Source of the DNA: Selaginella tamariscina
Lineage: Eukaryota; Streptophyta; Lycopodiopsida; Selaginellales; Selaginellaceae
Assembly: GCA_003024785.1 (NCBI GenBank)
Contig: PUQB01000113.1
Coordinates: forward strand, 107,211-171,210
Direction: 5' to 3'
Length of the DNA stretch: 64,000 nt
The position numbers and the translations under genes are program-made. Of this stretch, positions 13,836 to 48,632 are shown one piece after another (positions within the stretch are counted from its first letter, which is position 1; each line of letters opens with the position of its first letter). Under the pieces are notes generated by a model. The model was not told the origin of the DNA and ran no database searches. It saw nothing but the letters and a program-made list of their open reading frames with translations.

Positions 13836-13839
13836 GTGC

Positions 13840-15740: not shown

Positions 15741-15839
15741 GATCCTGCATATGACTGTCAAAAGCAAGTGTTGTTGGGTCCTGATCGACTTCGGCTTGCA
15801 GCACTACAAGTTCATTAGGCTCTAGCAAATTCCACACTC

Positions 15840-16930: not shown

Positions 16931-17315
16931 AACGATTGGGCCCTTACAGGATTGCGGTTTGAGGTCAATCCTGTAGCTTTTCAACTCGAGTTACTATTTA
17001 CGGTGAAACTTCATCCTGTGTTTTACACCTCTTTGTTGGAGCCGTATCATCCTTCTTCTCTTTCTGGTCGTGCTTCTTCTCCTCCCCCTCTTGTGGTCAT
17101 TGATGGTGAACCTAAGTACAAAGTTGTAGCCATCCTTGATTCTCGTCTTCATCGCCACCAACTTTAATACTTGATGGATTGGAAAGGTTATTTACCTACC
17201 GATCTCACTTGGGAACCTGCATCCAACTTACTCCATGCTTCTTCTAAAGTTGCTGCTTTCCATCGACGTTATCCTGCTAAACTAAGTCCCAAGACTCGTG
17301 GAACTTGTCCTTAAG
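16920..17315 (+). pseudogene. Integrase GPY/F tail and chromodomain, copy 2
   Basis: LDFQRLGPYRIAV at about 16,922-16,960 is the GPY/F motif. Then LHPVFYTSLLEPYHPSSL, a Ser/Pro-rich spacer and a chromodomain: YKVVAILDSRLH, a TAA at 17,166, then YLMDWKGYLPTDLTWEPASN. The end reads AFHRRYPAKLSPKTRGTCP and stops at 17,312. This assigns the family to the chromoviruses within Ty3/gypsy. Confidence 0.8.
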
Positions 17316-17325
17316 AAAGAGGTGC

Positions 17326-17853
17326 TGTCACGACCTGATACAGGATGCAGGATATAGGATACGGGTTACAGGATATACCTATAGATATACTTACAAGATA
17401 TGCCTGCAGGATATTCCTATAGGATTACCTACAGGATATTCCTACAGGATATTCCTACAGGATATGCCTATAGGATATACCTACAGGATATGCCTGTAGG
17501 ATATTCCTACAGGATATACCTACAGGATATTCCTATAGGATATGCTTATAGGATATACTATAGGATATGCTAAAGGATAAGGGTCACTATTTTTAGCTCA
17601 TGACCAGATTAGCTTGGAGTTGTGAGCATAAAAGCTCCGACCTAATTGTTGTACAATCAGTTATTATCAACATCAGTCTTTTTACGATCACTCTTGTTTT
17701 GTCTTGCTCCTTGCCTCCTACTCTTGTCTTGTTCCTGGTTCTTAGTTCTTGTCCTGCTCTAGTTCCTGTCCTACTCCTTGTCCTGCGTCTAAGTCAAGCT
17801 TCCTTGTTCTCGAAATCTTGCTCACTTCCTTGTTCCTAGATCGTGGCTTGACA
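17326..17853 (+). repeat. 3' LTR of chromovirus copy 2
   Basis: It begins TGTCACGACCTGATACAGG and ends ATCGTGGCTTGACA, followed at once by the target duplication AGCAG. About 230 bp of it are GGATAT-type minisatellite repeats. The AGCTTGGAGTTGTGAGCATAAAAG region (near 17,610) is shared by all copies and probably contains the promoter. Confidence 0.85.
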
Positions 17854-18902
17854 AGCAGCACCAATGGAGCCTGCACCTACATCCAACTTCGCGACTCGTA
17901 AACAAAGTGGACATTGAAGTTTTCCAACTGAACTTTAACTTCAACTTCACGTGTCTTGAACTTCCTGGCTTTAAATAGACATTTTGCCACCTTGTGTCCT
18001 ACTTCACCACAATACAAGCATAAGTTCTCACCACAATGACGTTGCTTCTCTGCAGTTGAAAGTGGGTGACGCTTGTATTTGTCAACTTCCATAGGAACTA
18101 CTCCAGAAGATGTCGTAAGAACATGTGCTACAATTATAGGATTGGCTTGCAAGAACTGCTGACGGATTTTTTCCTAACGATGTTCGAACAAACAGTTGTT
18201 ACAGCGAACGGCCTGTTGCATGATTTCCACTAAGGTTTGGGCATCTGGTGAAGTAAGGAGAAGGTCCTTCACGTCATCCCTCAACCCAAAATGGACGTGT
18301 TCAATCAATGTAGTCTTGTCCCATGGAATGTTCATGCAAAGTTGCTGAAATTTGGATGCATATACAGAAGCTAGTTAGAATCCTTGGGTGAGGTTCCGTA
18401 ACATTGTGCATGCAGAACAGTACTCATCAAGATTTCCAAAGCAGGCTTCTAAGGCAGTCACGAATTCTTCAAAGTTTTCCATCAATGGGTCATCACGCTC
18501 CAGCAAAGGGGCAACCCAAACCTGTGGAGATCCAACTAGTAAGAATGCCAAAAGGCCAACCTTTTGTGCATCAGTTGAGTAGCAGTGTGGTTGCATGCGG
18601 ATTAAAAGCCTGATCTGATTTAGGAAACCTTGGAAATTGACGCGATTGCCATTGAACTTTTCTGGCATGTTAATATTTGGTTCTGAAGAAGAGTTCGATG
18701 GAGAGGAAACCACGGATGCTTGAGAGAGATCATGCGCAGTAGCCTTGGAGGAAGCATCAGCAACTGCATGCACCGCGTTGGTGGAACCTTGCATATTTGT
18801 GACCACTTGGCACAAAGTGGCCAGCTCATGAAACAACATTTGATGCTCGCGTTGAAATTGCTCAAAATCTACTATGATCCATGAAAGAAAGGAGGAAAAC
18901 AA
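17854..18902 (-). pseudogene. gag and start of protease, chromovirus copy 3
   Basis: Minus strand. gag starts near 18,902-18,870 (FEQFQREHQMLFHELATLCQ). It holds frame for 175 residues to LRNLTQGF at 18,375, where a stop follows. It resumes with PMEVDKYKRHPLSTAEKQRH and the zinc knuckle CLYCGEVGHKVAKC (about 18,020). The protease begins at 17,900 and is interrupted at 17,858 by copy 2; the rest lies at 6,484-6,598. This is the oldest host of the nest, judged by insertion order. Confidence 0.75.
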
Positions 18903-18969
18903 GGGAGAAAAACTAAGGAAAAAAAATTAACTAAAAATTGGGGAGCTATAAAAGCAGTTACTATCAAAC

Positions 18970-19282
18970 TGTCAAGCCACGATCCAAGAGCAAGGAAGCT
19001 TGACTCAAGAGTAAAATAACAACTAAGAACAAGATGAGAACAGGAGGCAAAGGAGCAAGACAAGAACAAGATAAGAATGATCGTAGAATGACTGGTGTTA
19101 ATAGTAATTGATTGTACAATAATTAGGTCGGAGCTTTTGTGCTCACAACTCCAAGAGCTAATCTAGGCATGAGCTAAAAATATATTCTAAGGGCTAATCT
19201 AGTCATGAGCTAAAAATAATGTCCCATATCCTGTGGGCATATCCTATCTTCCGTATCCTGTATCCTATATCGAGTCATGACA
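18970..19282 (-). repeat. 5' LTR of chromovirus copy 3
   Basis: On the minus strand it runs from TGTCATGACTCGATATAGG to ATCGTGGCTTGACA and is followed by GTTTGATAGTAACTGC, as in copy 1. At 313 bp it is the shortest LTR of the family because most of the ACAGGATAT minisatellite is absent. Confidence 0.75.
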
Positions 19283-21455
19283 TTGACTAGTAGAAACGTG
19301 ATAGTGTACATCTAACATTTTGATAAATGAGAAATGGTTAGATTTGTGTGCACTAAGTATGGTTCTTCATTTGCAAGTATTAGAGGTGAAATTGAACATG
19401 ATAATCTACTCGCTCTTTAGGGAAAGGATTGGAGTTTCTTGGGTCCAATGCAACTCTCTTATACTTGAGAACAAGAGCACCACCCATGTGATGAGGATGA
19501 GGTTTTTGTAAAACTAGTAGAGGTAGCATGAGAGGTAGAAACACTTTCAGAAAATGTACAAGTCCCTTGCAATGCTGGTGGTTTTCTTGGGTTGAATGCA
19601 AAAATTGCACCAAGAAGTAGGTTTATGAATGGCAAAAGTTTTTTAGAACAAATGAAGAAAAGATGAAGCACAAGGCTAACTTTTTTTGACAAGGATGGAA
19701 AAGCAAAGTTTCATGTATATTATCGTGAATGCAACTTACAATATGGCAAGACAAATTTGTGATGTTGCATTGTACATTTGCTCAACATGAGGAAAACTAT
19801 TCAAAAAGAATTAATTGTGTAAACTCTCAAGTTAGCTCTTTAGTTAAAGAAGACTCTTTATAGGTTAATCCCAAAGTTGAGGTTGTTCAACAAAATAGAA
19901 CAAGGCAACGAGTTGAAGAACTATTGAGGAATGAGGTTATAACGTTTCAAGCTAACTTTGGTGTGAAGTTCCCTTTATATAAACTAAGCATTAAGAATCA
20001 TAGAACATTTTGCATTTGTTGTGAAGTTTGTGGAAAAAGTATCTTGATTTTCCCAATGGGCGAAAGTGTAAGCACTCTCATCAACAATATTGTAGCACAA
20101 ATCAACTCCACAAAGCATAGGATCATAGTAGAGCATGAAGGTGTTGATTATGGTCCAAGGAGAAAAAAAACTGAAGTGTTAAACAACCTTGCTAAGTAGC
20201 CAAGCATGCTGAAATTTTTGACAAAAGGTATGCAACATTTGTAGCAATTTGATTTTATATTATTATGTCTTCTACTTACTTGTTTTGTTATGTGAGCCAT
20301 TTTCAACATTATCCTTTTCAATTCTAGCACCACCTTGATTATTGTTTGAACCTAACATAGTGAAGAAATAAATGATTTTATTTAGTAACTCTTTTTTAAT
20401 GTTATAAAGTTTCAATTTATATAAAAAATAATAAATCATTCTAGGAAATAAATTTGTTTGTTTTGGTTATTGGCAACACTTTTACAAATATAGGAGAGTG
20501 TCATATGATTGACAATCTTCCTTGATGATTCTAAACAAAATAAAAACTAGTTTGTGGAGCCTCACTTTACTAGCAAGGTTGAGATAGATGGTCGACAAGT
20601 AACCATTTTGCTATAAACAATGCTTACACATTAGCAAGGTTATGGAAGGCTTTGAGAATAATTAGTGCAACACGTGTTCATCTATCCTTTGTCAATGAGA
20701 TTTTTTTATGAGAGTAAGAAGGGAACAAAAATCCATTGTTAATTGTAGAGACCGGGCTAGGACACAAATCATGATTGAGTTTATAACACATTTTGAGCAG
20801 TTGTAAGTTGCAAACTTTGCATGAACTTTGAATCCTTTTAGCTTCAACTTGCATGCAAGACTTTATTTTTAAGCTGCAAGAATATTCTTCCTCGAGTTAG
20901 CTACAAGAGGAAATCTTCACAAGTTTTGCAAAGATATCATGGATGCACACTAGCTTGGGAAGTTTGAAGGTTGTGAGGCAAATTGGGACTTCTTGCAAGA
21001 CATTATACAGAACATGAACATGAAGAAGTAGGGAATGACAAGAAAACTACATTACAATTATTTCAAGTTGTGAAGCTATAGGGTGGCATCAAAATGCACA
21101 ACTTTCTAAGCATGAACATTTAGGGCCTAGCATTACAACTACAAGACGAGGTAATCACACATCATTCAAGTGTTTAAGGGAGGACATTTTTAAAGCTTTG
21201 TCTAAGACTTATGAGCAAAAGATGAAGTTGCTTGAACTACATCTAGGTTTTATTCCATGCCAACTAGTTGAAGACAAAATAGTGATCAAGCAAGCTGTGC
21301 GTTGGGTTGCTAGGGATGACAATCTAGTTGGATTTTGTGGGAAAAATCCACTAACCATAGGTGCTTTCAAGACTTTGGATCAAGGGTTTAAGGATATGAA
21401 AGGGTGCACAACAAATCATAACATGTGGTTTTTGACTGAAAAGACCATATAAAAA
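19283..21455. other. Decayed sequence with two unassigned open fragments
   Basis: There are no intact genes. A 91-residue plus-strand fragment (19,924-20,196) contains CICCEVCGKSI and reads like part of a longer DNA-binding or transposase-type protein. An 84-residue fragment (21,198-21,449) contains QAVRWVARDDNLVGFCGK, which resembles a block I vaguely associate with transposase-like proteins, but I cannot assign it. Their shared orientation and spacing suggest one broken element or gene. Confidence 0.3.
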
Positions 21456-28079: not shown

Positions 28080-29210
28080 TTGGTCGAGGACACATTCGAC
28101 CTAGTCGATCATGTATGGTGCACCTATCTTGTTTGTAATGAAAAAGGATGGTACGATGCGAATGTGTGTGGACTATCGAGCGTGAACGCGATAACTATCA
28201 AAAATAAGTATCCTCTTCCACGAGTGGACGACTTATTTGATAGGCTATCAAAAGCAAAGTATTTTTCAAGAATAGACTTGAGATCTGGGTACCATCAGAT
28301 TCGGGTAGCAGAGAATGACATTGAGAAGACCGCTTTTCGAACGCGTTATGGATCATTTGAGTTTCTAGTCTTGCCATTCGGGTTGTGCAATGCTCCAGCA
28401 ACTTTTTGCACAATGATGGATGATGTGTTTAGAGACTATCTAGACGAGTTCGTAGTGGTGTATATTGATGACATTCTGATTTTCAGTTCGACAATTGAAG
28501 AACATGTGGAACACTTAGAAAAAGTGTTTCAGAGGTTGAGAGAGAACCAGTTGTATGCTAAAGAAAGCAAGTGCGCATTTGGTCAAACCAAGATAGATTT
28601 CTTGGGACACTTGATCTCAGGTGGGGAGGTTGCCATGGACCCAAAGAAAATTCAAGCTATTACTGAGTGGATGACTTTAAAAGACGTGCATGAAGTTAGA
28701 TCATTTCTTGGTCTGAAGGGTATTACCGAAGATTCATAAAGGGTTACTCGAAATAGCGGCCCCATTGACAGATCTTACGAAAAACATTCCATGGCATTGG
28801 ACTCCAGAGTGCCAACGTGCTTCGTCAAACTCAAAGAGGCTATCTCTTCTGAGCCAGTTTTGCAGTTGCCCATCTTTGAAGATCCCTTTGAAGTAGAATG
28901 TGACGCTTCCGACTTTGCAATTGGTGGTGTATTGCAACAAAAGGACATCCAGTGTCCTTTTTCTCGAAGAAGTTAGATGGCGCAAACTCGATGGCCTACT
29001 CACGAAAAGGAGATGTATGCTATTGTTGCTTCCTTGGAGTATTGGCGTCATTATCTTCCAAGTCATGGCACTGTGGTTTGGACAGATAGTGTAACTCTAA
29101 GGTATTTTGAAACGCAGCCGAAGCTATCGCCAAAGTATGCTAGATGGCAGCAGAAGTTGGCACGATTTCAGCCTGAAATCAGACATAAGGCGGAAAGGAC
29201 AATGTGGTAG
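28080..29210 (+). pseudogene. RT and RNase H of nested chromovirus
   Basis: RT is open from 28,080 to 28,736 (219 residues): [60 protein letters not shown] and the metal site [20 protein letters not shown]. After a frameshift at about 28,737, RNase H appears as VECDASDFAIGGVLQQKD, then RWPTHEKEMYAIVASLEYWR and the terminal WTDSVTLRYFETQPKLSPK. Only a few indels separate it from an intact frame, so it is younger than the 1,701-19,282 family copies. Confidence 0.8.
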
Positions 29211-33128: not shown

Positions 33129-33141
33129 TATTAAAGCATTT
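33129..33141 (-). repeat. 3' end of the host LTR, left of the 15-kb insertion
   Basis: These bases are the last part of the minus-strand LTR (ATAAATGCTTTAATA read on that strand, compare TATAAATGTTCTAACA at 22,989-23,004). The rest of this LTR lies at 48,229-48,632. ATTT (33,138-33,141) is duplicated at 48,229-48,232. Confidence 0.7.
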
Positions 33142-33168
33142 ATGCAAGTTGTAACTAAAATGGGCATG
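33142..33168 (+). repeat. Left terminal inverted repeat
   Basis: It starts ATGCAAGTTGTAACTAAAAT and ends TGGGCATG. It matches the reverse complement of 48,202-48,228 at 25 of 27 positions. Confidence 0.75.
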
Positions 33169-33788
33169 GCTATAGTCCCATTTCCTAATAATTAGCAATT
33201 TTAGCTATTTAATTAGCATTTTCTAATATTAAAGGAATATTCTTTAGAATATATGTTTGAAAAGAGAATATTCTTTAGAATATTCTATTTTGTATTCTAC
33301 CCTTTAATAAATTATAGCATTCATTGAACAAAAATTAATAACATTAAAAAAGTAGAATGTATTAAATTATATAATATATTGCCTAATATAACAATTAAGG
33401 AAGAGCATAAGAGGTACATTATATAAATATTGATGTTGTTATTAAAATATTAATATTTAAATATAACATTATTAATTAAAAATTTGTAGTAGTAATAATA
33501 TATATATAAAATCCTATAATAATATAGTCAATCTTCCATATCATTTTTTAAATTTATATAGTTAAGTATACAATTTGGTACTATTATTAAAGAGTTTATA
33601 ATAATTATGAATATTAAATATATGATATTTTATAATTTTGTAATTGCTTTAAGCTTCAGAAAACATACATTCCCTTGCAGTTTTGTTAATCGTGACTTTA
33701 TCAACGCTTCTTGACATCCACCCATATCGAATGGATTTAACATTTATAAAACATGCTGGGTCTTTTTGATTGGGAGACCATGTTTTCT
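33169..33788. other. AT-rich subterminal region, left
   Basis: No gene is seen. It contains several AGAATATTCT-type inverted motifs (33,235-33,290), also seen in the right subterminal region (about 48,030-48,060), and long A/T runs. These shared motifs may be subterminal sites. Confidence 0.4.
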
Positions 33789-36744
33789 CTAGGCATCCAT
33801 TATATCTTTCGCTCTCCTTCTCGTGTCGCCTTTTTGTGGTTTGAACCATGCAACCTTAACAATACTATTTTTTGTGATTACTTCAGGTGTGTCGATAATT
33901 TGACCCATCCAAATAGGCTGATTATATGACGCATCTGGAGTAATGAGAACCATCATTAGTTTTTGAAGATCCTTGCAGCAATCAAAGTATGCTTTAGGTT
34001 TTTGGTTCCTTTGTCCAACAAAGTGTGGGGTTTGCACTTCCACATCACTACTGGCTTCTATGTCGTCTGTGCTCAGTGATGTCATTTCAATCTCCTCTCG
34101 CCACCTTGTTTTAGGCCAGAAAGGGTGTTGCAATTCTGTACTTGTGACAGTAGGCCCTTCCAACTCTCGAACAACAGTCTCCCAATAGTTGACCACATGC
34201 TTATATAGTTCTGAGTAACCAGTTGCCTTATCAGAATTCTTTGGCATCGATTTTTGAACCCATGCCACATATTTTTTGATGCCATCAATAATAACCTCTT
34301 GTTCCTTGAGCTGGGCACTCAATGGAATAGGGTCTGGTTGTCCTTCTGGGAGAAGTGGCTTTCCATCCTCTCCACTTTTGAAGAGCATTAAGCCCTCTTT
34401 CGGTAACCACTCCTGCTCTGATGGCCGTAACTTGTACTGCATAATAGGTATACCATCTCGTATGGAGAAAAAGAATTGTAGCGGCACAAGGTGACCAACT
34501 AAAGAATCACTCCCTTCTTTTATATACTCCTTGAGAAATTTTTTGAAGTCTGGCACCTCAGTCACAAGCAAAGCACAACTTTTTTTGGAGATGCAATTTT
34601 CAAAAAGATTCATCATATGCGGTAAGGTAAGTGCACTTGTCCTTTTTGTAGAGTTGGAGACCTTGCTGAAGAACGCATCAATATCTTCATGAGTGTGACC
34701 AACCATAAGGAAACTGAGCGTGATTGTTTCAAACACACCTTTGGCAACAAGCATTGACAAGTATGCTAGCACATATCTAGAAAATAAAAGTAAGTATGAG
34801 CTTGAGAAACCCTTAAGTAAAATGATTTACCTATTTTTGTTCTCGCCTGCACAATTATCCATCTGTAAAAGCAAATGACGAGGAAGCTTATTTGATGTTG
34901 AGGACACATGTACACTATTTGAGCTAGATCCCTCCACTGAACCTGATCTCTCAACAGGGCCATCTGTTTTTTGTGCAGGTTGCTGACAATGCCTCTCATA
35001 TTCCCAAGTAGCCTCAAGTGCAGACGTGTTCATGAGAGCATTATGTAAAGGTTGAAGGTGTTGTTTCTTCACTTTGAGATCACTGATAGGATTTGTCTGA
35101 GAGTGGGCTTCAAGGTTTCTGAAACACATGGCTAACGACCCAATAGTGAAATTGGAGTCGCTAGACCAATGTGGAAGTGAAAAGTGTCCATATGACTCAC
35201 AACCGTGTCCATGTGTTAGCACACCTGTTAAAGAAATCGGAAGTTTCATGACATTTCCAAGGCACTTTGGTGTTGCAAAGAGCTTTGGAATGCTGGTCTT
35301 TAAATGATCCATCTTGTCATGGATCAAGCACAGATACTCTGATGGGCGTGACACAGAAAGCATGCGGTGTGCATAGTACTGAGACCGACAAGTTTGTTGT
35401 GCAATCATGTGGGCCTCCATCTTCTTTTGAATGGTAGTGATCTCCACCAAGGTTTTTGCACAAGCCTCTGCAGCCTTCAATGATGTACAAGTGTCACACT
35501 TAGAAAAGCTAGAGTGTTTTGCAATCTCCACATCCTTAAAATGAGTATTCCATATGTTGTTGAAGGTACCAGTGCAGATTGCTTGGAGCCCCATCAAACT
35601 GAGGCACTTGTTCACATGTTCACACAGTTTCAATTGAGTGTAGATTGAAGGTAAAACCTTGAGATTTTCCCTGACCCCTGCATTTGTGGTTCGGCATTTG
35701 TGAGGCATCCTGTCTGCATTTGCTTCCACAAAAGCCTTGAGTATCTTCTATGGCTGCCATGATGTGAGAGCGGGTTTTGACCAAGCGAGTGTTCCCATGA
35801 ACTGAGGTTCGCGCTCCATCTAGCCACTCATCCCTCCGACGGTAGAACGTGGTCTTTGGGATCCCGTATATACTGTACCAAGCTTTGAAGCAGATGGCCA
35901 CCTTATTAAATACCATGGATGTACTCTGATAACCTGTGTCCGAGGCCATTCCATCAATACACCCAGTTAGTGCAGCATATACAAACTCATGCCTTTGCTT
36001 TTGGGTGAGCATACGAAAGACATGTCTACATTGGGTAATTTCATTCCGGTCTGCCATCTGACAACACTTCTTCTTGCAACAGTCAATCGTGGAAATGCTC
36101 GTAACACTTTCGGAAGATGTAGGATCCATCTTTACCCTCTTGCTGAAACTTGCAGGGGAAGATCTACAACCCATGAATCGCCTTTTTCTTACAATAGGAC
36201 CAATGCAAGGAACCTCTTCAAATATGAGTTGTTCTTCCGGGTTGTTATTATTGAAATCCAACCCAGAATATGTTGAACCATCTTGCCGTCTTAATTCAGA
36301 TGTTCGCCACCTCACGAGGGATCCAGGATACAATGTGCCATTAGGTGAAACCTCTGTCACAACTACACCCACGAAGTCGGACCCTAGTTTCTCTTCTGAC
36401 ACTGCTTCCATTGGATTTATAGCTGTGATGATGCCTCTTCCGACTTCAATCTCACGAAGAAAGAGAATCACCTCATCCATCACAGCAGGCAAGCCATCAT
36501 CTGGTAAACTCGTGCTACTATTTGTTTGTGACTCTGCATATTTTGTGTCAGCCTTGACTTCATCCAAATTCCACAATACAGGAGAACCCTCCTCAAATTC
36601 CATTCCCAGAACCTCAACATGCTTGAAAATGGTGTTCACCCATACGTACACACAAGATCCTTGGGAAATATTGTGACATGATGCATTATTATCTCGAACT
36701 TCCACAGTTCCATGCCAACTATCTCGTTGTTCCGAAGAAGACAT
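33789..36744 (-). CDS. DUF7869-like transposase candidate, one frameshift
   Basis: The reading unit is about 965 residues. Start is the ATG at 36,744, the first in frame. Residues 1-200 are acidic and unassigned. Near 220-235 a zinc-type cluster CCKKKCC is followed by an HTH-like stretch (YGIPKTTFYRRRDEWLDG, about 300). A one-base frameshift near 35,745 moves the frame; it continues as FVEANADRMPHKC. The RNase H-like part shows LIHDKMDHLKTSIPK, then LLLQMDNCAGENKNR and, after a 54-nt GT-AG intron (34,777-34,830), MVGHTHEDIDAFFSKVS. These give Asp, Asp and Glu/Asp in the positions expected of a DDE nuclease. I recall this block order from proteins annotated DUF7869 in plants, fungi and animals. 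The role as transposase is inferred from fold pattern and its place in a TIR element. The single shift could be decay or an assembly error. Confidence 0.7.
34777..34830 (-). other. 54-nt intron in the transposase-like gene
   Basis: On the minus strand it has donor GTAAATCA and acceptor TTTATTTTCTAG. Removing it joins GENKNR to YVLAYLSML in frame, across the most conserved part of the protein. Confidence 0.8.
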
Positions 36745-36918
36745 ACTTTATCTCCAGTATTAAACATATTGTCCTGCACATAAATAATATTATTTATGAT
36801 ATCTGTTTATGCAATATTTTTAAGAAATCTGAATTACGGTTACTTAATAATATGCATATGCAATAATACATAATTATGTTTAGAGATAATATCTCATGTT
36901 TGATTAATACAACTGATG

Positions 36919-37870
36919 GGCGGGATTAATCCCGCCAACGAATCCCTCCGACGAGGAACGGTCGGCGGGATTAATCCCGCCGCCGACTCAACCCCTTCGG
37001 AGAGAGTCGGCGGGATTAATCCCGCCTTGGACTCCCTCCGACAAGGAAGAGCCGGCGGGATTAATCCCGCCGCCTCTTCCTCCTCGGGGGGAGTCCGGCG
37101 GGATTAATCCCGCCGACTCTCTCGCCGAGAGAGTCGGCGGGATTAATCCCGCCGCCGACTCAACCCCTTCGGAGAGAGTCGGCGGGATTAATCCCGCCGC
37201 CGACTCAACCCCTTCGGAGAGAGTCGGCGGGATTAATCCCGCCTTGGACTCCCTCGACAAGGAGCCGGCGGGATTAATCCCGCCGCCTCTTCCTCCTCGG
37301 GGGGAGTCCGGCGGGATTAATCCCGCCGACTCTCTCCGACGAGGAAGGGAGTCCGGCGGGATTAATCCCGCCGACTCATCCTCGCCGGAGAGAGTCGGCG
37401 GGATTAATCCCGCCGGACTCCCTTCCTCGTCGGAGGAAGAGGCGGCGGGATTAATCCCGCCGGCTCTTCCTTGTCGGAGGGAGTCCAAGGCGGGATTAAT
37501 CCCGCCCACAATTCTTACGACGGGGAATGGGTGGCGGGATTAAATCCGCACATAACTCTCTCCAAAACTATGATTTCAAAGAGATCTCGGGATAAATCCT
37601 GTCCCCAAATCTTTAAAACAGTGAAGTGGTGGCGAGATTAATCCCGCCACCCCTTCCCTGCCTCCTAAAATGGTTGGCGGGATTAATCCCGCCGACAACT
37701 CTTTCTAATAAATTCTGGTAACTCTTCATCAGTTGAGAAGGTTATCGACGGGATTAATCCCGCCACTCTTTTTCAGTGGCGGAGAAGCATTGCCCGGGAG
37801 ATGGTGGCGGGATTAATCCCGCCACTTCTTCAAAGAGGCGAAAAAGAAATGGCCGGATTAATCCCGCCGC
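36919..37870. repeat. Palindrome array 1
   Basis: About 20 copies of the 18-bp palindrome GGCGGGATTAATCCCGCC begin 175 bp upstream of the transposase-like start. Fourteen perfect copies run from 36,919 to 37,506 with start-to-start spacing of 39-47 bp, most often exactly 45 (36,919; 36,964; 37,009; 37,054; 37,097; 37,136; 37,181; 37,226; 37,267; 37,310; 37,355; 37,397; 37,444; 37,489). Degenerate copies follow to 37,870. Spacers such as GGACTCCCTCCGACAAGG occur in both orientations; 37,009-37,114 is close to an inverted copy of 37,397-37,506, so the array could fold into large hairpins. Confidence 0.95.
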
Positions 37871-38440
37871 CCCGGTTAACCTAGAATATTAAGTTAAAAG
37901 GATATTTAAACGTGATAAATCCCTAACGGAATATATTATAATCCTAATGCATTTCTAAACCCCTAAATTGTAATTTTAAGAGAGAATGTAAGAGAGTGAA
38001 TCTTAATAAGTATTTTTAAATTTGTTTATAATACTTACTTGTAAACAGCACTGAAGGCGCCGTGCTTTCCTATAAAGAATAGCACCCAATTTAATCTCGC
38101 TCCTGAGATGATCACTAAAGAAAAAAAAGAAGATCTAAAGAGTGAAAAATACAGAAATGAAGAAACCCTTGCCGGAGAAAGAACCAGATCTGAATTTGAG
38201 TGGGAAATTAAATGCATTTTCAAATTTATATGTCAGACCGACAATACATATGTCAGAAATTCAAATTTTTTAAAAAGAACAGAAAATAAAATTTAAGATG
38301 AGTTGACACAAATATCCGACACTCTGACATATATACTCTCCAGTTCCAATGAGTATTTTAAAATTGCATTTAATGTTATTCAAGTGATTCAAGCTGTTTA
38401 ATATTACGAAATTTTAGACTATATTCTACATTCTTAGTAT
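37871..38440. other. Non-coding stretch after array 1
   Basis: AT-rich sequence with no gene motif. A short open stretch at 38,108-38,296 is Glu/Lys-rich and unconvincing. Confidence 0.5.
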
Positions 38441-39190
38441 TCAAGTATATTTATATTATATATATATATATAATATATACTTATACAATAAATAAATTGA
38501 TATATTATTATGTATCATTTAAAATATATTCATAGTCTGTTTATTATTATTATTTTCTTAATTACTCGAGTATTTAGTTTTCATTTCCTAGTATCAATGG
38601 GATATTCTTTAATATTTTATTAATATTTGAAGAATATTCTAATATTAAACCTGATTATCATAATTAAATTAGTCTTGTTCTTAATTATTGCAGTAATTAT
38701 TCTACATTTGTATATATTAATGGGATTTTCTCAATTAATTTGTTATTATTTCAAGAATATTCATGTGTTAAACCTTATTATCAATATTAAATTAATACAC
38801 ACTATGAACATATTTTAAATTATACATAATAATACATCATTTTATCTAATATATAGTCATATATAGTTTTAATAATATATATATTAATATCATTTCCTTA
38901 ATTACTTGAGTAATTAATCTTCTTTATATTAATGGGATATTCTTTATTATTTTCTTATTATTCCAAGAATATTCCAATATTAAACATGATTATGATAATT
39001 AATTTAGTTAATTATTTGAGTACTTAATTTACATTTGTATATATTAATGGGATTTTCTCAATTAATTTCTTATTATTTCAAGAATATTTCAATGTTAAAC
39101 CTTTTTATCAATATTAAATTAATATATATTATTAAAACTATATATGGCTATATATTAGATAAAATCATATATTATTATGTATAATTTAAA
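38441..39190. repeat. AT-rich tandem and inverted repeats
   Basis: Units beginning ATTAATGGGAT and continuing TTTCAAGAATATTC then TTAAACCT-TATTATCA recur at about 38,597, 38,717, 38,930 and 39,045. They alternate between two forms, giving a dimer period near 330 bp. In addition 38,815-38,888 and 39,115-39,186 are inverted copies of each other (TAGATAAAAT-TATTATTATGTATAATT). Strong hairpin potential. Confidence 0.75.
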
Positions 39191-39467
39191 ATATGTTCCT
39201 AGTGTGTTTATTAATTTTATTTTCTTAATTATTCGATGTTTGTTTTGCACACATATATAAACACAATCATAAATTTACACACGCATTACAAGAACTTACA
39301 AAAACACATATGCACACACATGCACAACCCTAAACCAAACTGAAGAAATAGTTGCTTCTTTATTGAAAACATCATGTTCAACGCATGTATGATATATGTA
39401 CTCAATCTGTGTATATGTAACACATTGAATTTACATGTGTAATATTTATATTAAGCTTGTTGGGAGC

Positions 39468-39497
39468 AAACCCTAAACCCTAAACCCTAAACCCTAA
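39468..39497 (+). repeat. Interstitial telomere-type repeat 1
   Basis: Four units of CCCTAAA in a row, the plant telomere repeat read on its C-rich strand. Confidence 0.9.
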
Positions 39498-40339
39498 TAT
39501 GTAACACAATGAATTTACTCATGTAATATGTATGTATGTCTGTGTGTATACACGTGTGCATGTATATATGTGTACTCTGTATGTATATATGTGTACTTTC
39601 TGTCTTCTCTCATACATACACACCATGCATGATCCATGTTAATATGTACTGTCTCTCTTCTCTCAAACATACACACCATGCATGATCTATAATATGTACT
39701 CGGTCTCTCTAATATTATGTACTAATATGTATGTATGTCTGTGTGTATAATACACACCATGCATGATCCATATTAATATGTACTGTCTCTCTTCTCTCAT
39801 ATACTATGTATGTATATCTGTGTATAATATGTGTAAGTATATATGTGTACTAATATATGCAATGTGTACAAAAATAATTTTTCAACACTCTCTCTTCTCT
39901 CATACATACACACCATGCATGATCCATCCTAAATCCAAAACCCTAAACCCTAAACCCTAAACCCATGTAATATGTGTGTATGTCTGTGTGTATACACGTG
40001 TGTATGTATATATTATGTGTATTAATATATGCAATGTGTACACATGAAACTTTAACACTCTCATGGACACACACATGTTAAATCCCTGCATGATTTATAT
40101 TTTTGAGGTGTATGTGATACACCCACACACACGCACGCGCTAATAATATAATGAAAGAATATTCGTTTAGGGCGAATCTATATTTTATTCTTTTTAGGGT
40201 TTAAGTATATTCTCAGAAGGAATATTCTATTAGGGTTGATATATATATTTAATTCCTTTAGGGTTTAGGTATATTCTTAGGGTTTCAAGAGGCGGCGGCT
40301 GTGAAATCGGCGGCGGCGGCTGTGCACACAGGTGAGATC

Positions 40340-40370
<31 letters not shown>

Positions 40371-40592
40371 ATATGTATAGGAGTGTGCGTATAATTTTTT
40401 TTCTTAGTTTTATCTCTCGCACACACACGCACACTCCTGTGTATGTATATGTGTCTGTATGATTTATTTGTTTCGCTCACACACGCATACACACGATATA
40501 CATATACACATATATATATATATACCTATATACATATATACATACATATATTATGTGTACCAGTATCTGTAAATTTTTTTTATTGATCTTGC

Positions 40593-40666
<74 letters not shown>

Positions 40667-40731
40667 GTGTACCAGTATCTGTAAATTTTTTTTTATTGAT
40701 CTATCTCTCCCACACACACGCGCACTGCTTT

Positions 40732-40810
<79 letters not shown>

Positions 40811-41480
40811 CAATGCATATTAACAAATAGTATACAACACTAGTTTATATATATGCTTATATATTCATAATATACACACATATATATGTGTGTGTTTATC
40901 TGTATAATTTTATTTATTTATTAGTTTTATCTCTCGCACACACACGCACACTCCTGTGTATGTATATGTGTGTGTGTGTGTGTTTGTTTATCTGTATGAT
41001 TTTATTTGTTTCGCTCACACACGCATACACACAATATACATATACACATATATATATACCTATATACATATATACATACATACAACACTAGTTTATATAT
41101 ATGCTTATATATTCACAGACTCTCTCTCTTTCTCTATAGATTATATATCTATATACACACATATATATGTGTGTGTTTATCTGTATAATTTTATTTATTT
41201 ATTAGTTTTATCTTTTGCACACACACGCACACTCCTGTGTATATATATATGTGTGTGTGTGTGTTTGTTTATCTGTATGATTTTATTTGTTTCGCTCACA
41301 CGCATACACACGATATACATATACACACATATATATACCTATGTACACACATATATTAGGTGTACCAGTACTGTATAAGTTTATTTATTTATCTATCTCT
41401 TGCACACACACGTACACTCCTATACATACATACATACATACATATATACACACACACACACATATATATGTGTGTGTTTT
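39498..41480. repeat. Microsatellite-rich core with tandem duplicated blocks
   Basis: TG, CA and TA runs dominate, for example (CA)n(TA)n at 40,597-40,662 and 40,735-40,808. A block of about 285 bp containing TTTTATCTCTCGCACACACA is duplicated head-to-tail (40,872-41,155 and 41,156-41,430), and a partial copy lies at 40,330-40,560. Open frames here are by-products of the repeats and are not genes. Confidence 0.85.
39938..39964 (+). repeat. Interstitial telomere-type repeat 2
   Basis: About three and a half units of CCCTAAA in the same orientation as the run at 39,468. Both are flanked by copies of TGTGTGTATACACGTGTG and CACCATGCATGATCC sequences. Confidence 0.9.
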
Positions 41481-41502
41481 TATCTCGCTAAGCCCCTCGA
41501 GC

Positions 41503-43050
41503 GGCGGGATTAATCCCGCCGCTATATAGTTGGGGCCATGGCGGCGGGATTAATCCCGCCGCCGAGGCCCTTCAGGCATGGGTGAGCGGCGGGATTAATC
41601 CCGCCGCCGAGGCCCTTCACGCAGGCTATGGGCGGCGGGATTAATCCCGCCGCTCTACGACAAACCGAAGAGCGGCGGGATTAATCCCGCCGCCCATAGC
41701 CTGCGTGAGGGGCCTCGGCGGCGGGATTAATCCCGCCGCTCATCCATGCCCTGCGCGGAATGCGGCGGGATTTATCTCGCCGGCAATGGCCTGTGTGAAG
41801 GTTCTAATGGGCGGGATTAATCCCGCCGGATTCCGCGCAGGGCATTTACAGGGAATGGGCGGCAGGATTAATCCCGCCGCTCTTCGGTTTGTCGTAGAGC
41901 GGCGGGATTAATCCCGCCGCCCAGGGAATTCACGCAGGACATGAACGGCGGGATTAATCCGGCCCCACGCTCATGCCCTTCGCGGAGGGCGGCGGGATTA
42001 ATCCCGCCGTTCATGTCCTGCGTGAATTCCCTGGGCGGCGGGATTAATCCCGCCCCCACCCATCCCTGTTCAAAAATGCCGCAGCCAATATATATGTGTG
42101 AGCGCATGATTTACGAGAGGGCGGCGGGATTAGCCTCCGAACCTTCATTACCCGGTGGCGAGATTAATCTCCGAACCTTCATTACCCCATTGGTATGTTG
42201 AATCAATCCCGACTAACTCTGTCTGAGACGGAGAAGGTTTACAAAATACCAATGGAGGGAACCGAGAAGGGTGGTGGGATTAATTTCACCATCCCTTACA
42301 TGGTGGGCGGGATTAATCCCGCCGCGTACGCATGCCCTGCGCGGAATCGGGCGGGATTTATCCCGCCGCCATTGGCCTGCCTGAAGGGCCTAGGCGGCGG
42401 GATTAATCCCGCAAGATTTCGCACAGGGCATTGGCGTTCGGCGGGATTAATCCCGCCGACTAAGGCCCGAGTGAAGGGCCTGGGAGGCGGGATTAATCCC
42501 GCCGAACGCCAATGCCCTGTGCGAATCGGGCGGGATTTATCCCGCCGCCATTGGCCTGCCTGAAGTGCCTAGGCGGCGGATTAATCCCGCCCGATTCCGC
42601 GCAGGGAATTGGCGTCCGGCGGGATTAATCCCGCCGCATAGGGATCGAGTGAAGGCCCTGGGCGGCGGGATTAATCCCGCCGAGTCTTCAATGCCTGTTG
42701 GAGAAATGAATCTCGCCACCCTTCCCTTTTTCCTCCATTGGTGAGTTGGACCAATCCCAAACGTTTCTGTCTAAGACGTAGAAGGTTTACAACATACCAA
42801 TGGAGGGGACTGGGAAGGGTGGCGAGATTCATTTAACCATCCCTTACATGGTGGGCGAGATTAATCCCGCCTCCTTTCTGGAGTCACTGAAGGGGTGTGA
42901 GAAATAAATCCTGCCCAGTTCTCTCTGAGACCGAGAAGGGTGGCAAGATTAATTCCGCACTCCCGTTCAAGGCCTCCAGAAAGGTGGCGAGATTAATCCC
43001 GCCCACTCTTTCAGGAGGCATTGAAGGGGTGGCGAGATTAATCCCGCCGC
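41503..43050. repeat. Palindrome array 2
   Basis: About 30 copies of the GGCGGGATTAATCCCGCC palindrome, many perfect (41,503; 41,543; 41,588; 41,634; 41,674; 41,720 and others up to 42,662), at intervals of about 40-46 bp. Copies towards the ParB/MTase gene (42,690-43,050) are degenerate, commonly GGCGAGATTAATCCCGCC. Spacers again recur in both orientations: CTCTACGACAAACCGAAGAG (41,653-41,672) is inverted at 41,880-41,899. The spacer sequences differ from those of array 1, so only the palindrome itself is shared. Confidence 0.95.
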
Positions 43051-43390
43051 ACCTTCCATGTGAATATATATGTGTATTAGTATATATAAGTTGCATATCT
43101 CATTTTATTTACTTTTATCATCTTTCATATTATTTCGAGTAAAAGCTAGGAATCTATGTAAAACTGTCCAGAGCTCACATTTGTGGTGGTTCTAAAACGA
43201 AATGTTATCTTTCTTTTGCACTAACACAAATGTGAGCTTCGGACAGTTAATTACGTCTACTTCTCTCTGTGTATTATTTTTGTATATTCGGGTTTATACA
43301 AGTGTGTGTGCGTTTTTATATAATTTATATTTATAGTGTATTATTTTGCAGAAGGACGATTTGATCAAACAAGGAGATCGAGTCATTAGT

Positions 43391-46300
43391 ATGGAGTCGT
43401 CGTCAAATTCTGGGTAAGAATTAAAATAAAATCTGTTATACTCGGATACTTGAACTAATCATTTTTGTATTCAGATGTGGAATTGAGGTGACATTAAAGT
43501 CAAGAGCAGGAGAAGAGATGGGCAGGGGGATTCTGGAATCAACTTGGCCATATTTTAAGATAAATGGGAAGCGCATTGGAGCAACCATGGCTGCTGTCAA
43601 ATTAACCTCTGTCACATCTCATGGACAAGTAAAACAATGGAAAGTTGATTCGCTAGTCAAGCACCCGAAAGCAGGCTGCGAACCCAGATTGGACGATGCT
43701 CGACAGATATGCCTTGTTCCATCCAATGTCACGTTCTCGGATCCAGAGGTCGTCAGTTACAACATTAATCTCGGGTGGTTTTGTCGACTTGTGGATAATG
43801 ACGTTCACGTGTTCACTAATGATGTTGACCTTGGAGTTCTTCTTCAACTCAACGAAAGCCCATCTATGGAGGGGATCCATCTGGATGTCTACTTCGAAGA
43901 TCTTCAGACTCATCGAGTAGGTGTATTGTCAGGAGATATTGTTTCACAATACAGAAAATCAGCAAGTGGAGCAATCTTCCCTCTTGACATTGAAGAAGAA
44001 CACAGCGACATCATAAGGGAGATTGAGAAGGTGGCTCGGTCTCAGGTTCTCTACAGATCACGTTCAATTTGCTTAGGAAGCTTCGGGAGCTGGAGCAGTG
44101 TGCCGAGAACACTAGAACAGCTGCAGTCGGGGATCACACATGTTGATTCGGATCGCAAAAGAAAATCATCAATCGTTTTGTCAGCTGCACCTGTGGCATC
44201 TCATGCTGCAATAAGTCACAAGGAAATGATGTTGGATGATAAGATTTATCCTTGTAGGGTTAAATATTGCAGCGTCAACCCAAACTTCAATTACAGGCCA
44301 CTCAACCAGGAACGTGTAGCTGAGCTCATGGAGAAGATGAAGGACGACAATTCTTATACCGTTCCACATAATGCTGTTTTGTGTCCATACTATGAAAGAA
44401 GGAAGGGTGCTGACAAAGTCTGGATCACAACACCAGAACAACTCATGAAGATTCAGACGGAGAATAAAAGATCTATCAAGTACTACATCATTAGTGGCCA
44501 GCACACAATAACGGCAGCCCAACGACTTCTCGAAGAACACAACAAAGGAACGATGGCAACAAAACTTTCCGAGCATACCCGTGAGAAGCTGACAAAAAGA
44601 TCGGCGTTTTTAGCTAAGCCGAATCTCACAATCGAGCAGTACCATAAGTTATCGGCGGAATGGGACGCTGCCGACACCAACCACTACAACAGCAAAATAT
44701 GGGAGAAGTTTAAACACACGCGAGCCGTGTGGGAATCTCTTCAGCGACCACAAAGAGCTACCGCAGGGAATACACAATCTGCGGAATACCGGGTAAGCAA
44801 ATTGTTTGGGCGGGATTTATCTCGCCGGTATATTAATCTGTCTTTTTCCTCAGAGAGTTGAAGAAATTGCAGCAGTTGATTTTGCCCAGGTGGGCGGGAA
44901 GGAAACATCATTTCTGATGATGTTGATTTCTTGCCCCGAAGATAGGATCTTTGCCAAATGGTTGGGGATTATGGAATCCTTTTCAAAAGGAACACTGAAG
45001 AAGAAGCAGACAAGTGAAGGGGAGCCCTCAGAAAAGTCTGCAAAGAAACCCAGTAAGACGCCGAAGGCTAAGTCTGTTCAATCTACAAAGGATGTAGACA
45101 ACGATTTCAAGCTCACATGGTTGAAGCCTTTAAATGGAACAACGATGGAGGAGATGGAAGTCTTGGCTGATTTGGTGATCGATGGCAAACTACAAATCAA
45201 TAACAGCAGCCCAACCTCTCCTTTTCATCTCAAGGCAATGGAGTTGAAGACGGTCAGGCATTTCAAGGAGTGGTTGGGAATACACTGCCACAAACTGGGT
45301 TGGACCTCGACTTCAACATATGAAGAGGTTAGCAAATATTTGCATGTGACGAACGATGATATGCTTGTCGAATGGGTGAACCAATCGGAAGATCTAGGCA
45401 AGAATCTATTGCACGCCAACGCCAAAAAGGAGAACATTGGGATGACGCCTTCTCTTATGGCAGTCCTTCAGCAGCGGAGAACCGAATTGAACCTTATAAA
45501 GGAGGATGCTACGAATCACGACAAGCCCTACAGATGTTTGTTGTTAGATTCGGAGACTTTATGGGGTAACATCACTGCTTGTAGGAAACCGTTTCAATTG
45601 TTCGTGATGGATCGGCGGGTGTCAAAAAATCTTTCGACAGATAGGGCACTAGAGGATCTGGTGGAGAAACTTAGCCGTGCAAGCATATACATAGAAGGTA
45701 TTTATTATTGAATTCATGCTTGCGCTCTTCACTGATACCTACTTTTTCAGGTATTTATTTCTTGATTCTTGCTCATGTCACCGATACTTTTGCCTTCGCC
45801 TTCGCCAAGAAGAATAGACATCGTTGGACAGGATTTTATATGAACGATGCTAATCCCAAGTGCATTGATACTGTTGTTCACTTGGTTGTTAGGAATGCGC
45901 CAAACAATTTCAAGCTTCCAAATGACTGGCCAGGCATCTGTTTGCACTCCAACGGCCCTGAACCTCCATCCGATACACCGATAGGTATGAGTGACGTATT
46001 CGGCAATGTACGTTATCCAAACATTACAAGTCAAGCGGCACGGAGCATCGTCAACTTGATCAGGGGTCCTCACAGTGATGCGTGGGTTTTTGACTACTGC
46101 ACTAGGGGGTCCGTCTTGAAGGAGTGTTACCTTCGGCATACATGTGTGTTTGCCGTTGAGAAGGATAAGACCATGGTTGAGGACCTGAACAAGTGGATAG
46201 ATTGGGTCTCAACTGAGTACCCCAACGATTCCATAAAGGCGTATTTGAGAAAGTTCCCTCCAGATAAGTGCGATAGCTCTGAAGGTGAATCTGGTTCAAT

Positions 46301-46496
46301 CTCGGAGTCTGAGAACGAACATCAATCAGATATTAGACCGGAAGTTATCTCGAGGAGTACAGAACATTCGCACACTCCAGGACCCATGGAAACATCAATA
46401 GAAGATGCAGAAGATCTTGAACCATCTCACAAGCGGCTTAGACCTTCTTCGCCTCATTCAGAAGGTAATAGCGAAGAAGAATTGATAATGAATTGA
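43391..46496 (+). CDS. ParB-like/methyltransferase-like fusion protein, intact
   Basis: Four exons (43,391-43,413; 43,475-44,792; 44,854-45,697; 45,751-46,496) with GT-AG introns of 53-61 nt join without a stop into 976 residues, starting MESSSNSGCGIEV. Residues 1-240 are unassigned. At about 273-365 a ParB/sulfiredoxin-type domain is suggested by YRPLNQERVAELMEKM and YYIISGQHTITAAQRLLEE (compare the GQHR box of ParB). A basic Ser/Lys-rich linker (KKQTSEGEPS) follows near 500. At about 730-880 DAWVFDYCTRGSVL and VFAVEKD resemble motif I and II of N4/N6 DNA methyltransferases, though the DPPY-type catalytic motif is not clear. The C-terminus is acidic with a basic patch SHKRLRPSS that may act as a nuclear signal. 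ParB-plus-methylase fusions are known from phages and bacteria. It is divergent from the transposase-like gene across the palindrome arrays. DNA binding is a reasonable inference; catalysis is uncertain. Confidence 0.75.
44793..44853 (+). other. Intron 2 of the ParB/MTase gene, containing a palindrome copy
   Basis: Donor GTAAGCAA and acceptor TTTTTCCTCAG. At 44,809-44,826 the intron contains GGCGGGATTTATCTCGCC, which differs from the array palindrome at two positions and is identical to variants in array 2 (for example at about 41,763). It is the only copy I saw outside the two arrays. Confidence 0.85.
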
Positions 46497-46607
46497 TAAA
46501 GTGATGAATAGTTGTAAATGAGTGTAACATAAGGCATTTTTGTATATTTCTTTTATATTTGTACAGAAAATAAATTCTCAAGGATTAATGAAGCTTTTAG
46601 TTCAAAC

Positions 46608-47939
46608 ATGGGTCACACATTAACAAGGTAAATAATATACCTTGATAATTTTAAGGTCAGCTAATTATCATTTTGCAGATGTAATGAAATAATTGAGAAC
46701 ATGGATTTTCAGCATTGCCATGAGGTAAGAGAGGGGTTTGGCGACAATTTTTGTGCCACATGTCAGAATGACAGAGTTCATGCAGGAAATGGATAATAAT
46801 GCAGCTCAAAACATCGTTACCATGGGGGCCACTTCAGTTTTTGCATCATCATTTTTATTGGCTTCATTCCGAAATCAATTTCTTCAGCGCATGCAATATC
46901 TGAATCTTGTAAGGATGATGTACAATTAAATGATGAAGGGATAGGCAACGAAATAGTGGCAACGGATAAATGTGAAAGGGAGCAAACAAGTGATTTGCAA
47001 AGTATTCAAGAGGCAACGCTATCTCATGTTACTCATGGCCATATTGTGTTGTTGGATGTCAATGGTGTTCTGCTTCATCGACAAAGGCCCGAGGATAGAA
47101 AAACAGAAATCAAACAAGGAGATTTCATTCCTTGTCATGGTAAATTTCGATATGATATTATTTTTCGTCCAGGGTTGGATCGTCTCTTTCAAAAGCTTAA
47201 GGAGATGGGTGCGCTTGTGGGGATTTGGTCATGCATGCAGATTCATAACTTAACACCGCTGTTGAGTTTACTTAAGAAACATTGTAGTGTTGCAGAAGAG
47301 GTGATTCGTAAAGATTGGATTTTTGACCAGCGAATGTGTTATAAACCTCTCGAATTTCACAATATAGGAAATGAAAGCAAGCCATACTTCTTCAAGAATG
47401 AAAGAATAATTGGGACTCATGGGGAGATCAGTCGCTTAAGGATAACGAAGAATGCACATATCTTAGTAGTAGACGACTCTCCTCAGAAGGCTATGCTCAA
47501 CCAAAACATTGCTTGTATTCATCCAATCACTTTCGATCCATATTCTGATATCGATATCATGGATGAGCTAGTGAACTACTTGGATACGTGCCTCAGAAAG
47601 AAGAATCTCGAAAATTTTTGTGAGCAGTATCCACCGTATCATACATTTCCTGAAGCTTTTCTTTCTCGTGATATTGAATTTTATAAAATGAAGGATAGCA
47701 ACCGGGCGCTTTATAATATTATTCTTAAGGAACGTCAGTTTTTAGATGAGCCTTTATGCAGACCTTCTTATACATCTTATGTATTAACAAGGATGGCAAC
47801 TCCCAATTGCATTCGTGAGAGTGTTAAGTGGTGGCAACAACATCAAGATATTGACCAAAATGATTTGATTAATCCGGAGAGTGATGATTTAGACAAAATG
47901 AAAAGATTTCTTTGTATGATAGAAAGAAAGTATTTATAA
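46608..47939 (+). CDS. HAD/FCP1-like phosphatase family protein
   Basis: The 3' exon is certain from about 46,914 to the stop at 47,937-47,939. HAD motif I reads HIVLLDVNGVLLHR; the second Asp of DxDG is Asn, as in several plant FCP1-like proteins and possible pseudophosphatases. RYDIIFRPGLDRLFQKLKEM and VGIWSCM (motif II Ser) follow, then KPYFFKNERI and the acidic motif ILVVDDSPQKA. These match the NLI-interacting-factor/FCP1 family, which removes phosphate from proteins such as the RNA polymerase II tail. A plausible 5' part has exons 46,608-46,627 and 46,679-46,724 (MGHTLTRCNEIIENMDFQ), spliced to 46,914. The last acceptor is weak, so the start is uncertain. It may be captured cargo or part of the element's own set. 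Confidence 0.65.
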
Positions 47940-48201
47940 AAAAATTAACATGTTGATAAGAAAATGATTTCATTTGTAATTATGTTTGATAGTATTTCTT
48001 CATTATTGTAAACTATTTTTAGAATAATATGAATATTCTAAGATATTTTAGGAATATTCCTTACTAAGTAAGGTTATTGAAGGATTAATTAATTAATTAA
48101 TTAATATTTAAGGCTTAATTACATATTAATTAAATGATTAATTAATAATTAAAACTTAAGTATTAATTAGTAATTTATTTTATATTCCCATTTTCACGTA
48201 T
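47940..48201. other. AT-rich subterminal region, right
   Basis: No gene. It contains AATATTCTAAGATATTTTAGGAATATTCC-type inverted motifs (about 48,030-48,060; only the arms are clear) and TTAATTAA repeats at 48,080-48,150. Confidence 0.45.
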
Positions 48202-48228
48202 CATGCCCACTTTAGTTACAACGTGCAT
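48202..48228 (-). repeat. Right terminal inverted repeat
   Basis: On the minus strand it starts ATGCACGTTGTAACTAAAGT and ends TGGGCATG. It is the partner of 33,142-33,168. Confidence 0.75.
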
Positions 48229-48632
48229 ATTTATAAAATATCTTGTTCATAAAACAAGAATTTGTTCATTAAACAATATATTATAATTATGCATTTCCAT
48301 TAATGAAATAATTATAAAGAAATAGCAAGTGTAGAGATTTACTTCTCTCTTAAAATTGCTCTCTCTAATGCATTGCTTTCTTATATAGCTCTCCATAACT
48401 CCTTTATATCACTTCATAGCTCTTTATAGCTTTTATAGCCCTTCTTTATTCCTAAATGAATCTTGTCCTCCCTTGTCTCTTTGTACCAACCATCATAATC
48501 GTTCGTTTCTTGCCTCCATAAGATCTTTCTTATTATCATAAGATTTTTCTTATGCATAGGATATTCCTGCTACTCATTTCTTACATGTTATTCTTTCACT
48601 ATAAAAACATGTTATATTTTTGGCCTATAACA
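48229..48632 (-). repeat. 5' part of the host LTR, right of the 15-kb insertion
   Basis: On the minus strand it begins TGTTATAGGCCAAAAATATA and matches 22,529-22,990 of the plus-oriented LTR. It stops in ATAAAT exactly where the 15-kb element ends. With 33,129-33,141 it makes one complete LTR. Confidence 0.75.

Follow-up and report, generated by a model that had tools for sequence, protein, structure and literature searches.

The best-known example of sequence-specific anti-silencing by transposons is that of the VANDAL elements of Arabidopsis and their VANC proteins; Spm and MuDR are related cases. VANDALs are Mutator-type elements with a target-site duplication (TSD) of about 9 bp and a MULE transposase. 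In Spm/En, a second element protein, TnpA, binds many short sites. CACTA elements have CACTA ends, a 3-bp TSD and subterminal sites, and Sola elements have a 4-bp TSD. According to the sections of the source available to us, VANC21 of VANDAL21 binds a motif of 9 bases, copies of which are arrayed within introns and also upstream of the transposase gene, VANC sites are tandem repeats that change along with VANC, and VANC is a DUF1985/DUF287 protein (PMC5735166). From similarly partial texts, VANC21 strips methylation from its own family (PMC5735166; PMC10398659), and TnpA activates Spm, correlating with demethylation (PMC10398659). Fungal KDZ, Plavaka and other transposons encode TET/JBP dioxygenases, as stated in the passages available from a further source (PMC12730594). 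Here we analyze a stretch of 64,000 nucleotides from Selaginella tamariscina (contig PUQB01000113.1, positions 107,211 to 171,210), referred to as the window. It contains a 15-kb unit that belongs to a high-copy family of DNA transposons of the cut-and-paste type, with a gene for a DUF7869 protein (the likely transposase), a second gene (ORF2) and clustered copies of one 18-bp palindrome. We put at about 0.5 the probability that ORF2 recognizes these palindromes and thereby keeps the control regions of its own element active.

The palindrome, GGCGGGATTAATCCCGCC, occurs in the window 31 times exactly, 46 times with at most three mismatches and 55 times with at most six, where 100 dinucleotide shuffles gave a chance expectation of 0. 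All 46 sites fall within the unit, with none elsewhere in the window, in agreement with a preliminary description of this DNA, which had counted about 50 copies confined to the unit. No site overlaps a coding exon of the predicted gene models (0/46). The sites fall into one array upstream of the DUF7869 gene, another upstream of ORF2 and a single copy in an ORF2 intron, and the spacing within runs is mostly 39–47 bp. Over the 46 copies the information content is 1.57–2.0 bits at the 18 core positions and at most 0.65 bits at the flanking positions examined, and the unit of conservation is therefore the palindrome and not the ~45-bp repeat. Variants of the arms are mostly one-sided, with 34 symmetric double changes against 21.8 expected and a maximum of 35 in 1,000 shuffles. 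One-sided variation of a perfect dyad is more readily explained by a protein dimer bound to duplex DNA than by an RNA hairpin, and a conserved hairpin as the constraint on the palindrome was rejected because compensation is weak. A search for palindrome arrays gave no match in viral contigs and three two-site matches in prokaryote contigs, which are probably due to chance.

The two terminal inverted repeats (TIRs) of the unit are identical at 25 of 27 positions and start with ATGCA, and the 21-bp TIR core has no additional copy elsewhere in the window at up to four mismatches. The unit splits a long terminal repeat (LTR). A related LTR on the minus strand at 23.2–22.5 kb represents the empty site, and when the two flanks are joined they can be aligned to it through the junction, apart from a gap at a 60-bp duplication that the related LTR carries beside that point. 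The genes form divergent modules, with DUF7869 on the minus strand and ORF2 and a phosphatase-like gene on the plus strand. The inverted ends, the LTR split at the ends of the unit and the divergent modules had all been proposed in the preliminary description and are borne out here. An ATTTAT repeat at the junction makes the TSD length ambiguous in the window copy. Among 20 TIR pairs drawn from the first 100 places in the genome listing of TIR cores, exact 4-bp flank matches occurred in 10, compared to 0.26 expected from mispaired flanks. The other lengths gave 0 pairs at 2 bp (2.21 expected), 1 at 3 bp (0.68), 1 at 5 bp (0.05; from an end with a shifted start) and 0 at 6 bp. The 10 matches at 4 bp, and their near absence at other lengths, imply that the TSD of the family is 4 bp.

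The 300.7-Mb assembly contains 27,128 exact palindromes and 2,926 exact TIR cores (1,482 and 1,444 by strand), and reversed-letter controls gave 0 for both. Taking two ends per element, the copy number would be on the order of 1,500. Ten loci (a–j) on contig C1, chosen for carrying palindromes, were read in 18 stretches. Five of them (a, d, e, h and j) combine both TIRs with the three genes and one or more arrays, the set that the preliminary description had suggested searching for; d has the C-terminal part of ORF2 only. The remaining loci are partial, cut at the fetched edge or deleted. The TIRs of e and j are damaged. The 4-bp TSD is exact in the window copy, d and h, and also in a if one end base has been lost; it is not exact in e and j. 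Long aligned stretches of the five copies are mostly 85–98% identical to the window, with lower values in the array regions. Copies have many single-base frameshifts, some of which are perhaps sequencing errors. Eight copies, including that of the window, tie for the top score with 100% identity over ORF2 residues 9–450 (among the best 47 of 8,415 candidates), which points to recent spread or duplication. Eight of the best-ranked DUF7869 loci were examined and all are members of the same family, and viral contigs contained no relatives of ORF2 or DUF7869. Some of the loci read do carry palindromes apart from a transposase gene or TIR (on C1 partly b, c and i; short stretches at C488, C463 and C660), a pattern that the preliminary description had held to speak against a self-contained mobile element. 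Each of them either contains pieces of element genes or is truncated where the fetched stretch ends, and we read them as fragments of the element. The broader proposal of a self-contained mobile element with its own clustered sites is strongly supported by the borders, the TSDs and the copies, together with the selection on ORF2 and the motif shift described below.

The DUF7869 gene matches its Pfam family in two pieces (E 1.1e-12 and 2.4e-25), and a D...D...HxHxDxD pattern can be discerned by eye in its protein, which is very likely the transposase. The window copy of the gene is broken by two frameshifts, near 36715 and 35735. In copy j the first exon is open from MFNTGDKV to the intron, across both of these places, and the second has frameshifts of its own. 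The predicted model of ORF2 comprises four exons with GT-AG introns and encodes 976 amino acids with no internal stop. We calculated the ratio of non-synonymous to synonymous differences (pN/pS) relative to the window copy, using blastn alignments no shorter than 200 nt and no less than 85% identical and leaving out frameshifted codons; locus i yielded nothing under this filter. The ratio is 0.26–0.45 for ORF2 and 0.18–0.44 for the DUF7869 gene, in 8/8 copies each, and both proteins are under purifying selection in the copies compared. Within ORF2 it is lowest at residues 383–489 (0.08) and 546–670 (0.06), with 0.21 and 0.34 in stretches that look ParB-like and methyltransferase-like, 0.45 and 0.65 in the N-terminal part, and 1.0–1.3 in the linker and tail. 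When a fossil ORF2 relative on C1 was used as query, 143 matches to part of exon 2 of ORF2 were obtained, 133 of them stop-free, in a set that holds the best candidates only, which favors intact copies, and that includes the query itself twice. The low pN/pS and the stop-free matches indicate that ORF2 is a working gene of the element.

Within the arrays, the spacers of copies e, j, a and h are 92.8, 91.1, 77.7 and 74.5% identical to those of the window and the palindromes 97.0, 95.1, 91.8 and 91.2%, in alignments that may be anchored by the palindromes, which favors palindrome identity. The palindrome in intron 2 is kept in all seven main-family copies that have the region (a, b, e, f, g, h and j) and has decayed in the older copy i.

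A divergent relative, the C488 locus (175 kb; C488:172600-179400, 6.8 kb fetched), was reached by a search with the C1 fossil. It contains a broken ORF2 that is 46% identical over residues 10–262 and 33–57% identical in further pieces, and it keeps the layout, with an array upstream whose sites are partly 45 bp apart and a single site that lies between its matches to exon 2 and exon 3. The palindrome has the center TTAA at 336/416 sites of the main family, versus 0/13 at C488 and 0/7 in the C1 fossil; all 20 sites of these two relatives have TTTA or TAAA instead (mismatches were counted outside the two center bases). Fisher's test gives p 1e-9, which is overstated because sites within one array are not independent; the lineages themselves differ clearly. 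In the main family the intron-2 site still has a TTTA center, perhaps the older state. The C1 fossil itself (C1:1817.7-1819.6 kb) is, like C488, an old, broken ORF2 relative with a decayed array, and it carries three sites roughly where the main family has its single intron-2 site.

We propose that ORF2 is an element-specific, probably nuclear protein that would bind the clustered palindromes upstream of the DUF7869 gene, upstream of its own gene and in one of its introns. Binding would mark the control regions of the element and keep them active, or derepress them against host silencing. Such a scheme would work like VANC of VANDAL or TnpA of Spm, with a protein that is not detectably related and a dyad-symmetric site. 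From the sequence evidence it is probable that ORF2 is the protein that binds the palindromes; that the outcome of binding is anti-silencing or promoter activation is argued by analogy and is more tentative, at slightly less than an even chance. Self-recognition that keeps promoters active appears the most likely function because the layout matches that of VANC21 in VANDAL21, in that an additional protein is under selection, sites are densely packed in control regions and an intron, arrays turn over rapidly and the motif shifts with the protein lineage. As far as the available sections on VANDAL/VANC go, both systems combine a multi-gene DNA transposon with an extra element-specific protein, and both have tandem arrays of a short motif in one or more introns and upstream of the transposase gene, with 46/46 sites non-coding in the unit. 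In both, arrays turn over quickly and motif and protein lineage change together, here in one divergent locus and one fossil. The unit differs in its 4-bp TSD, its DUF7869 gene, its 18-bp palindrome and an ORF2 that has no Pfam match to DUF1985/DUF287. The proposed scheme resembles Spm/En in having a second element protein with many short sites, and the unit differs from that CACTA element in its ATGCA ends, 4-bp TSD and internal sites. The fungal TET/JBP transposons are similar in that a DNA transposon bears a gene thought to act against silencing; they differ from the unit in that the gene encodes an enzyme of a known family, and site arrays are unmentioned in the passages on them.

Several observations weigh against this proposal. 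Neither family nor structure searches found a DNA-binding domain in ORF2, and two single-sequence AlphaFold models have low confidence, with mean predicted local distance difference test (pLDDT) scores of 33 and 50. VANC motifs, in the sections of the source available, are short and direct, not palindromic like the sites of the unit. The parts of the element outside the arrays are 98.7, 98.4, 92.9 and 92.9% identical to the window in e, j, a and h, slightly above the palindromes in 4/4 copies, so that the palindromes are conserved relative to the spacers and not relative to the rest of the element. In addition, the arrays evolve by amplification, which makes their sites interdependent, and gene conversion could contribute to the uniformity of the core. 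The CpG observed/expected ratio is 1.15 and 1.03 in the two arrays, 0.67 and 0.58 in the spacers alone and 0.51 and 0.52 in the flanks. The spacers are thus near the level of the flanks, and there is no clear sign of lasting hypomethylation. The evidence from divergent motifs is one broken locus and one fossil, and DUF7869, phosphatase and TIR were not found in the 6.8 kb at C488 (best TIR with 7/21 mismatches). Among ten young copies (ORF2 exon 2 at 100%, rounded), the three with both flanks comparable, C530, C658 and C1239, have no exact TSD; one end of C1239 is damaged. Furthermore, C533, C641 and C1239 have an identical left flank, which by eye resembles part of the DUF7869 gene. A nested insertion at one place, a duplication or an assembly join are possible causes. 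Contigs C533 and C641 stop inside the element, where assembly joins or haplotype duplicates are possible.

Table 1 Coordinates of the features of the unit, in window positions; a dot in the strand column marks features without strand
Feature	Position	Strand	Details
Whole unit, DNA transposon	33142-48228		15,087 bp
Left TSD	33138..33141	.	ATTT; 4-bp length backed by 10/20 other end pairs
Left TIR	33142..33168	+	27 bp, ATGCAAGTTGTAACTAAAATGGGCATG; 21-bp core 2,926 times exact genome-wide
DUF7869 (transposase-like) gene	33789..36767	-	Start about 36767, intron 34777-34830, stop 33789-33791
Palindrome array A	36919..37868	.	20 sites, mostly 39-47 bp apart, upstream of DUF7869 gene
AT-rich middle	37900..41480	.	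27% GC; simple repeats and telomere-like AAACCCTA repeats
Palindrome array B	41503..43048	.	25 sites, upstream of ORF2
ORF2, second gene, predicted model	43391..46496	+	Exons 43391-43413, 43475-44792, 44854-45697, 45751-46496
Lone palindrome	44809..44826	.	2 mismatches; within 61-bp intron 2 of ORF2
NIF/HAD-type phosphatase-like open reading frame	46956..47939	+	Pfam PF03031, E 1.3e-11
Right TIR	48202..48228	-	27 bp, ATGCACGTTGTAACTAAAGTGGGCATG (opposite strand)
Right TSD	48229..48232	.	ATTT

The preliminary description had interpreted ORF2 as a fusion of ParB and a methyltransferase and had built on it the idea of partitioning. A scheme of this kind, in which ORF2 would load at the palindromes as ParB does at parS and then spread or clamp for partition, pairing or self-marking, possibly with help of a methyltransferase-like domain, we regard as improbable. 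Bacterial ParB/parS systems and ParB-methyltransferase fusions do share with the unit clustered palindromic sites and a faint ParB-N-like order of motifs, seen by eye in ORF2 residues 259–382 (...NQERVAELMEKM...YYIISGQHTITAA...); homology to ORF2 is not detectable. A bacterial ParB profile pairs GHTRYKAA with GQHTITAA of ORF2, a score reached by 3/200 shuffles for a segment chosen by eye, and DRRV and DYCTRG stand, again by eye, at the places expected for DPPY and FxGxG. The ParB label was rejected since Pfam (E up to 1 and 10), PHROGs and NCBIfam gave no match, as was the methyltransferase label, with no N6_N4_Mtase match in Pfam and none in NCBIfam or PHROGs. ParB_N (PF02195) is without a match anywhere in the genome, in a search that was positive in 10/14 control genomes, and a PDB sequence search with ORF2 found nothing reliable. 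The ParB-methyltransferase profile was built from 26 fusion proteins (of 80 viral loci, 78 had a ParB-like frame and 26 both motifs), and the methyltransferase profile also included yhdJ and three phage enzymes. The whole of ORF2 scored no better against the fusion profile than 5 shuffles, and 74/200 shuffles scored as high as its methyltransferase segment. Foldseek with the second, poor ORF2 model returned nothing meaningful and no ParB entry among the 50 matches listed. ParB-like and methyltransferase-like are thus descriptions by eye only, and the fusion and the partition idea that depended on it find no support in these searches. In the searches made, ORF2 had no relative outside the S. 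tamariscina genome. A large protein collection had no match for ORF2 and none for the DUF7869 protein either, which suggests that it is probably poor in plant proteins.

The palindromes could instead serve transposition itself, as transposase-binding or enhancer sites that the DUF7869 protein, or ORF2 in an accessory capacity, would recognize, with no role in silencing. TnpA of Spm is a precedent for accessory DNA-binding proteins with many sites, and in the full copies a, e, h and j arrays flank the middle region on both sides. We consider this unlikely, as the sites are internal, ~3.8 kb and 5.2 kb from the ends and not subterminal, and one is inside an ORF2 intron in every main-family copy that has the region. 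Less likely still are arrays of sites for a host factor, such as a cell-cycle regulator, that would drive timed expression while ORF2 does something else. The half site (GGCGGGA) is similar to an E2F site of plants and the middle region has telomere-box-like AAACCCTA repeats, but E2F-type TTTCCCGCC and GGCGGGAAA are absent from the window, and the center of the motif varies with the ORF2 lineage within one host, unlike what is expected of a fixed host factor. The least probable account treats the arrays as neutral or selfish tandem repeats that slippage, inversion and gene conversion have multiplied, and the uniform core as a by-product. The arrays do hold long direct and inverted duplications, the number of sites varies between copies, and the palindromes do not exceed the rest of the element in conservation. 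Nevertheless, the spacers of the same repeat units diverge while the 18 bp are nearly fixed, and the lone intron-2 site is retained, also at the old C488 relative.

Inverted ends on many copies and a fixed 4-bp TSD place the family among cut-and-paste elements of the TIR order. Its TSD of 4 bp and the lack of a MULE match in Pfam do not agree with Mutator/VANDAL membership, nor do the ATGCA ends, the 4-bp TSD and a Transposase_23 match of 12.3 bits, compared to a cut-off of 21, agree with CACTA/EnSpm. The TSD length agrees with Sola, in a comparison by TSD length alone. The family may be undescribed. DUF7869 has no mention in the literature searched, and searches on ParB or anti-silencing in transposons gave no such element among the titles and abstract starts listed (subscription papers and Repbase lay outside both). 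The proposed mechanism would be a variant of known transposon anti-silencing with an unrelated protein. A much bolder reading is a plant DNA transposon new at the level of a superfamily, with independently evolved, sequence-specific self-recognition and anti-silencing and an orphan protein that co-evolves with palindromes at more than 27,000 places and maybe acts across the host genome; we find it doubtful. If self-recognition by ORF2 is correct, it would provide a second system, with an unrelated protein, a clear palindromic site, many near-identical young copies and a traceable motif shift, and would show that systems of this kind evolve again and again. Direct tests of the arms race of transposon and host would then be possible, and a protein whose perfect sites number 27,000 in a single genome would be a ready tool for chromatin marking or editing.

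The phosphatase-like open reading frame is present in 8/10 of the C1 loci read and has, by eye, DVNG where a DxDx motif is usual. Its pN/pS is 0.62–2.17 in 7/8 copies, the eighth being without synonymous change (counts are small), and it is probably a captured host gene carried as an unconstrained passenger. In copies a, b, f, g and h its synonymous divergence of 0.005–0.024 is below the 0.094–0.108 of ORF2, as if modules had been swapped between subfamilies. The middle of the element contains short interstitial telomere-type arrays, (AAACCCT)n, at 39468-39497 and 39928-39964, and three further AAACCCTA on the opposite strand near 40.2 kb. Outside the unit, window positions 1-20000 and 28080-28739 hold what by eye are Gypsy-type retrotransposon remnants in direct and inverted duplicated blocks, with several tandem arrays, among them a 13-bp TACAGGATATACC and a 37-bp GGAGCAGGATAG repeat.

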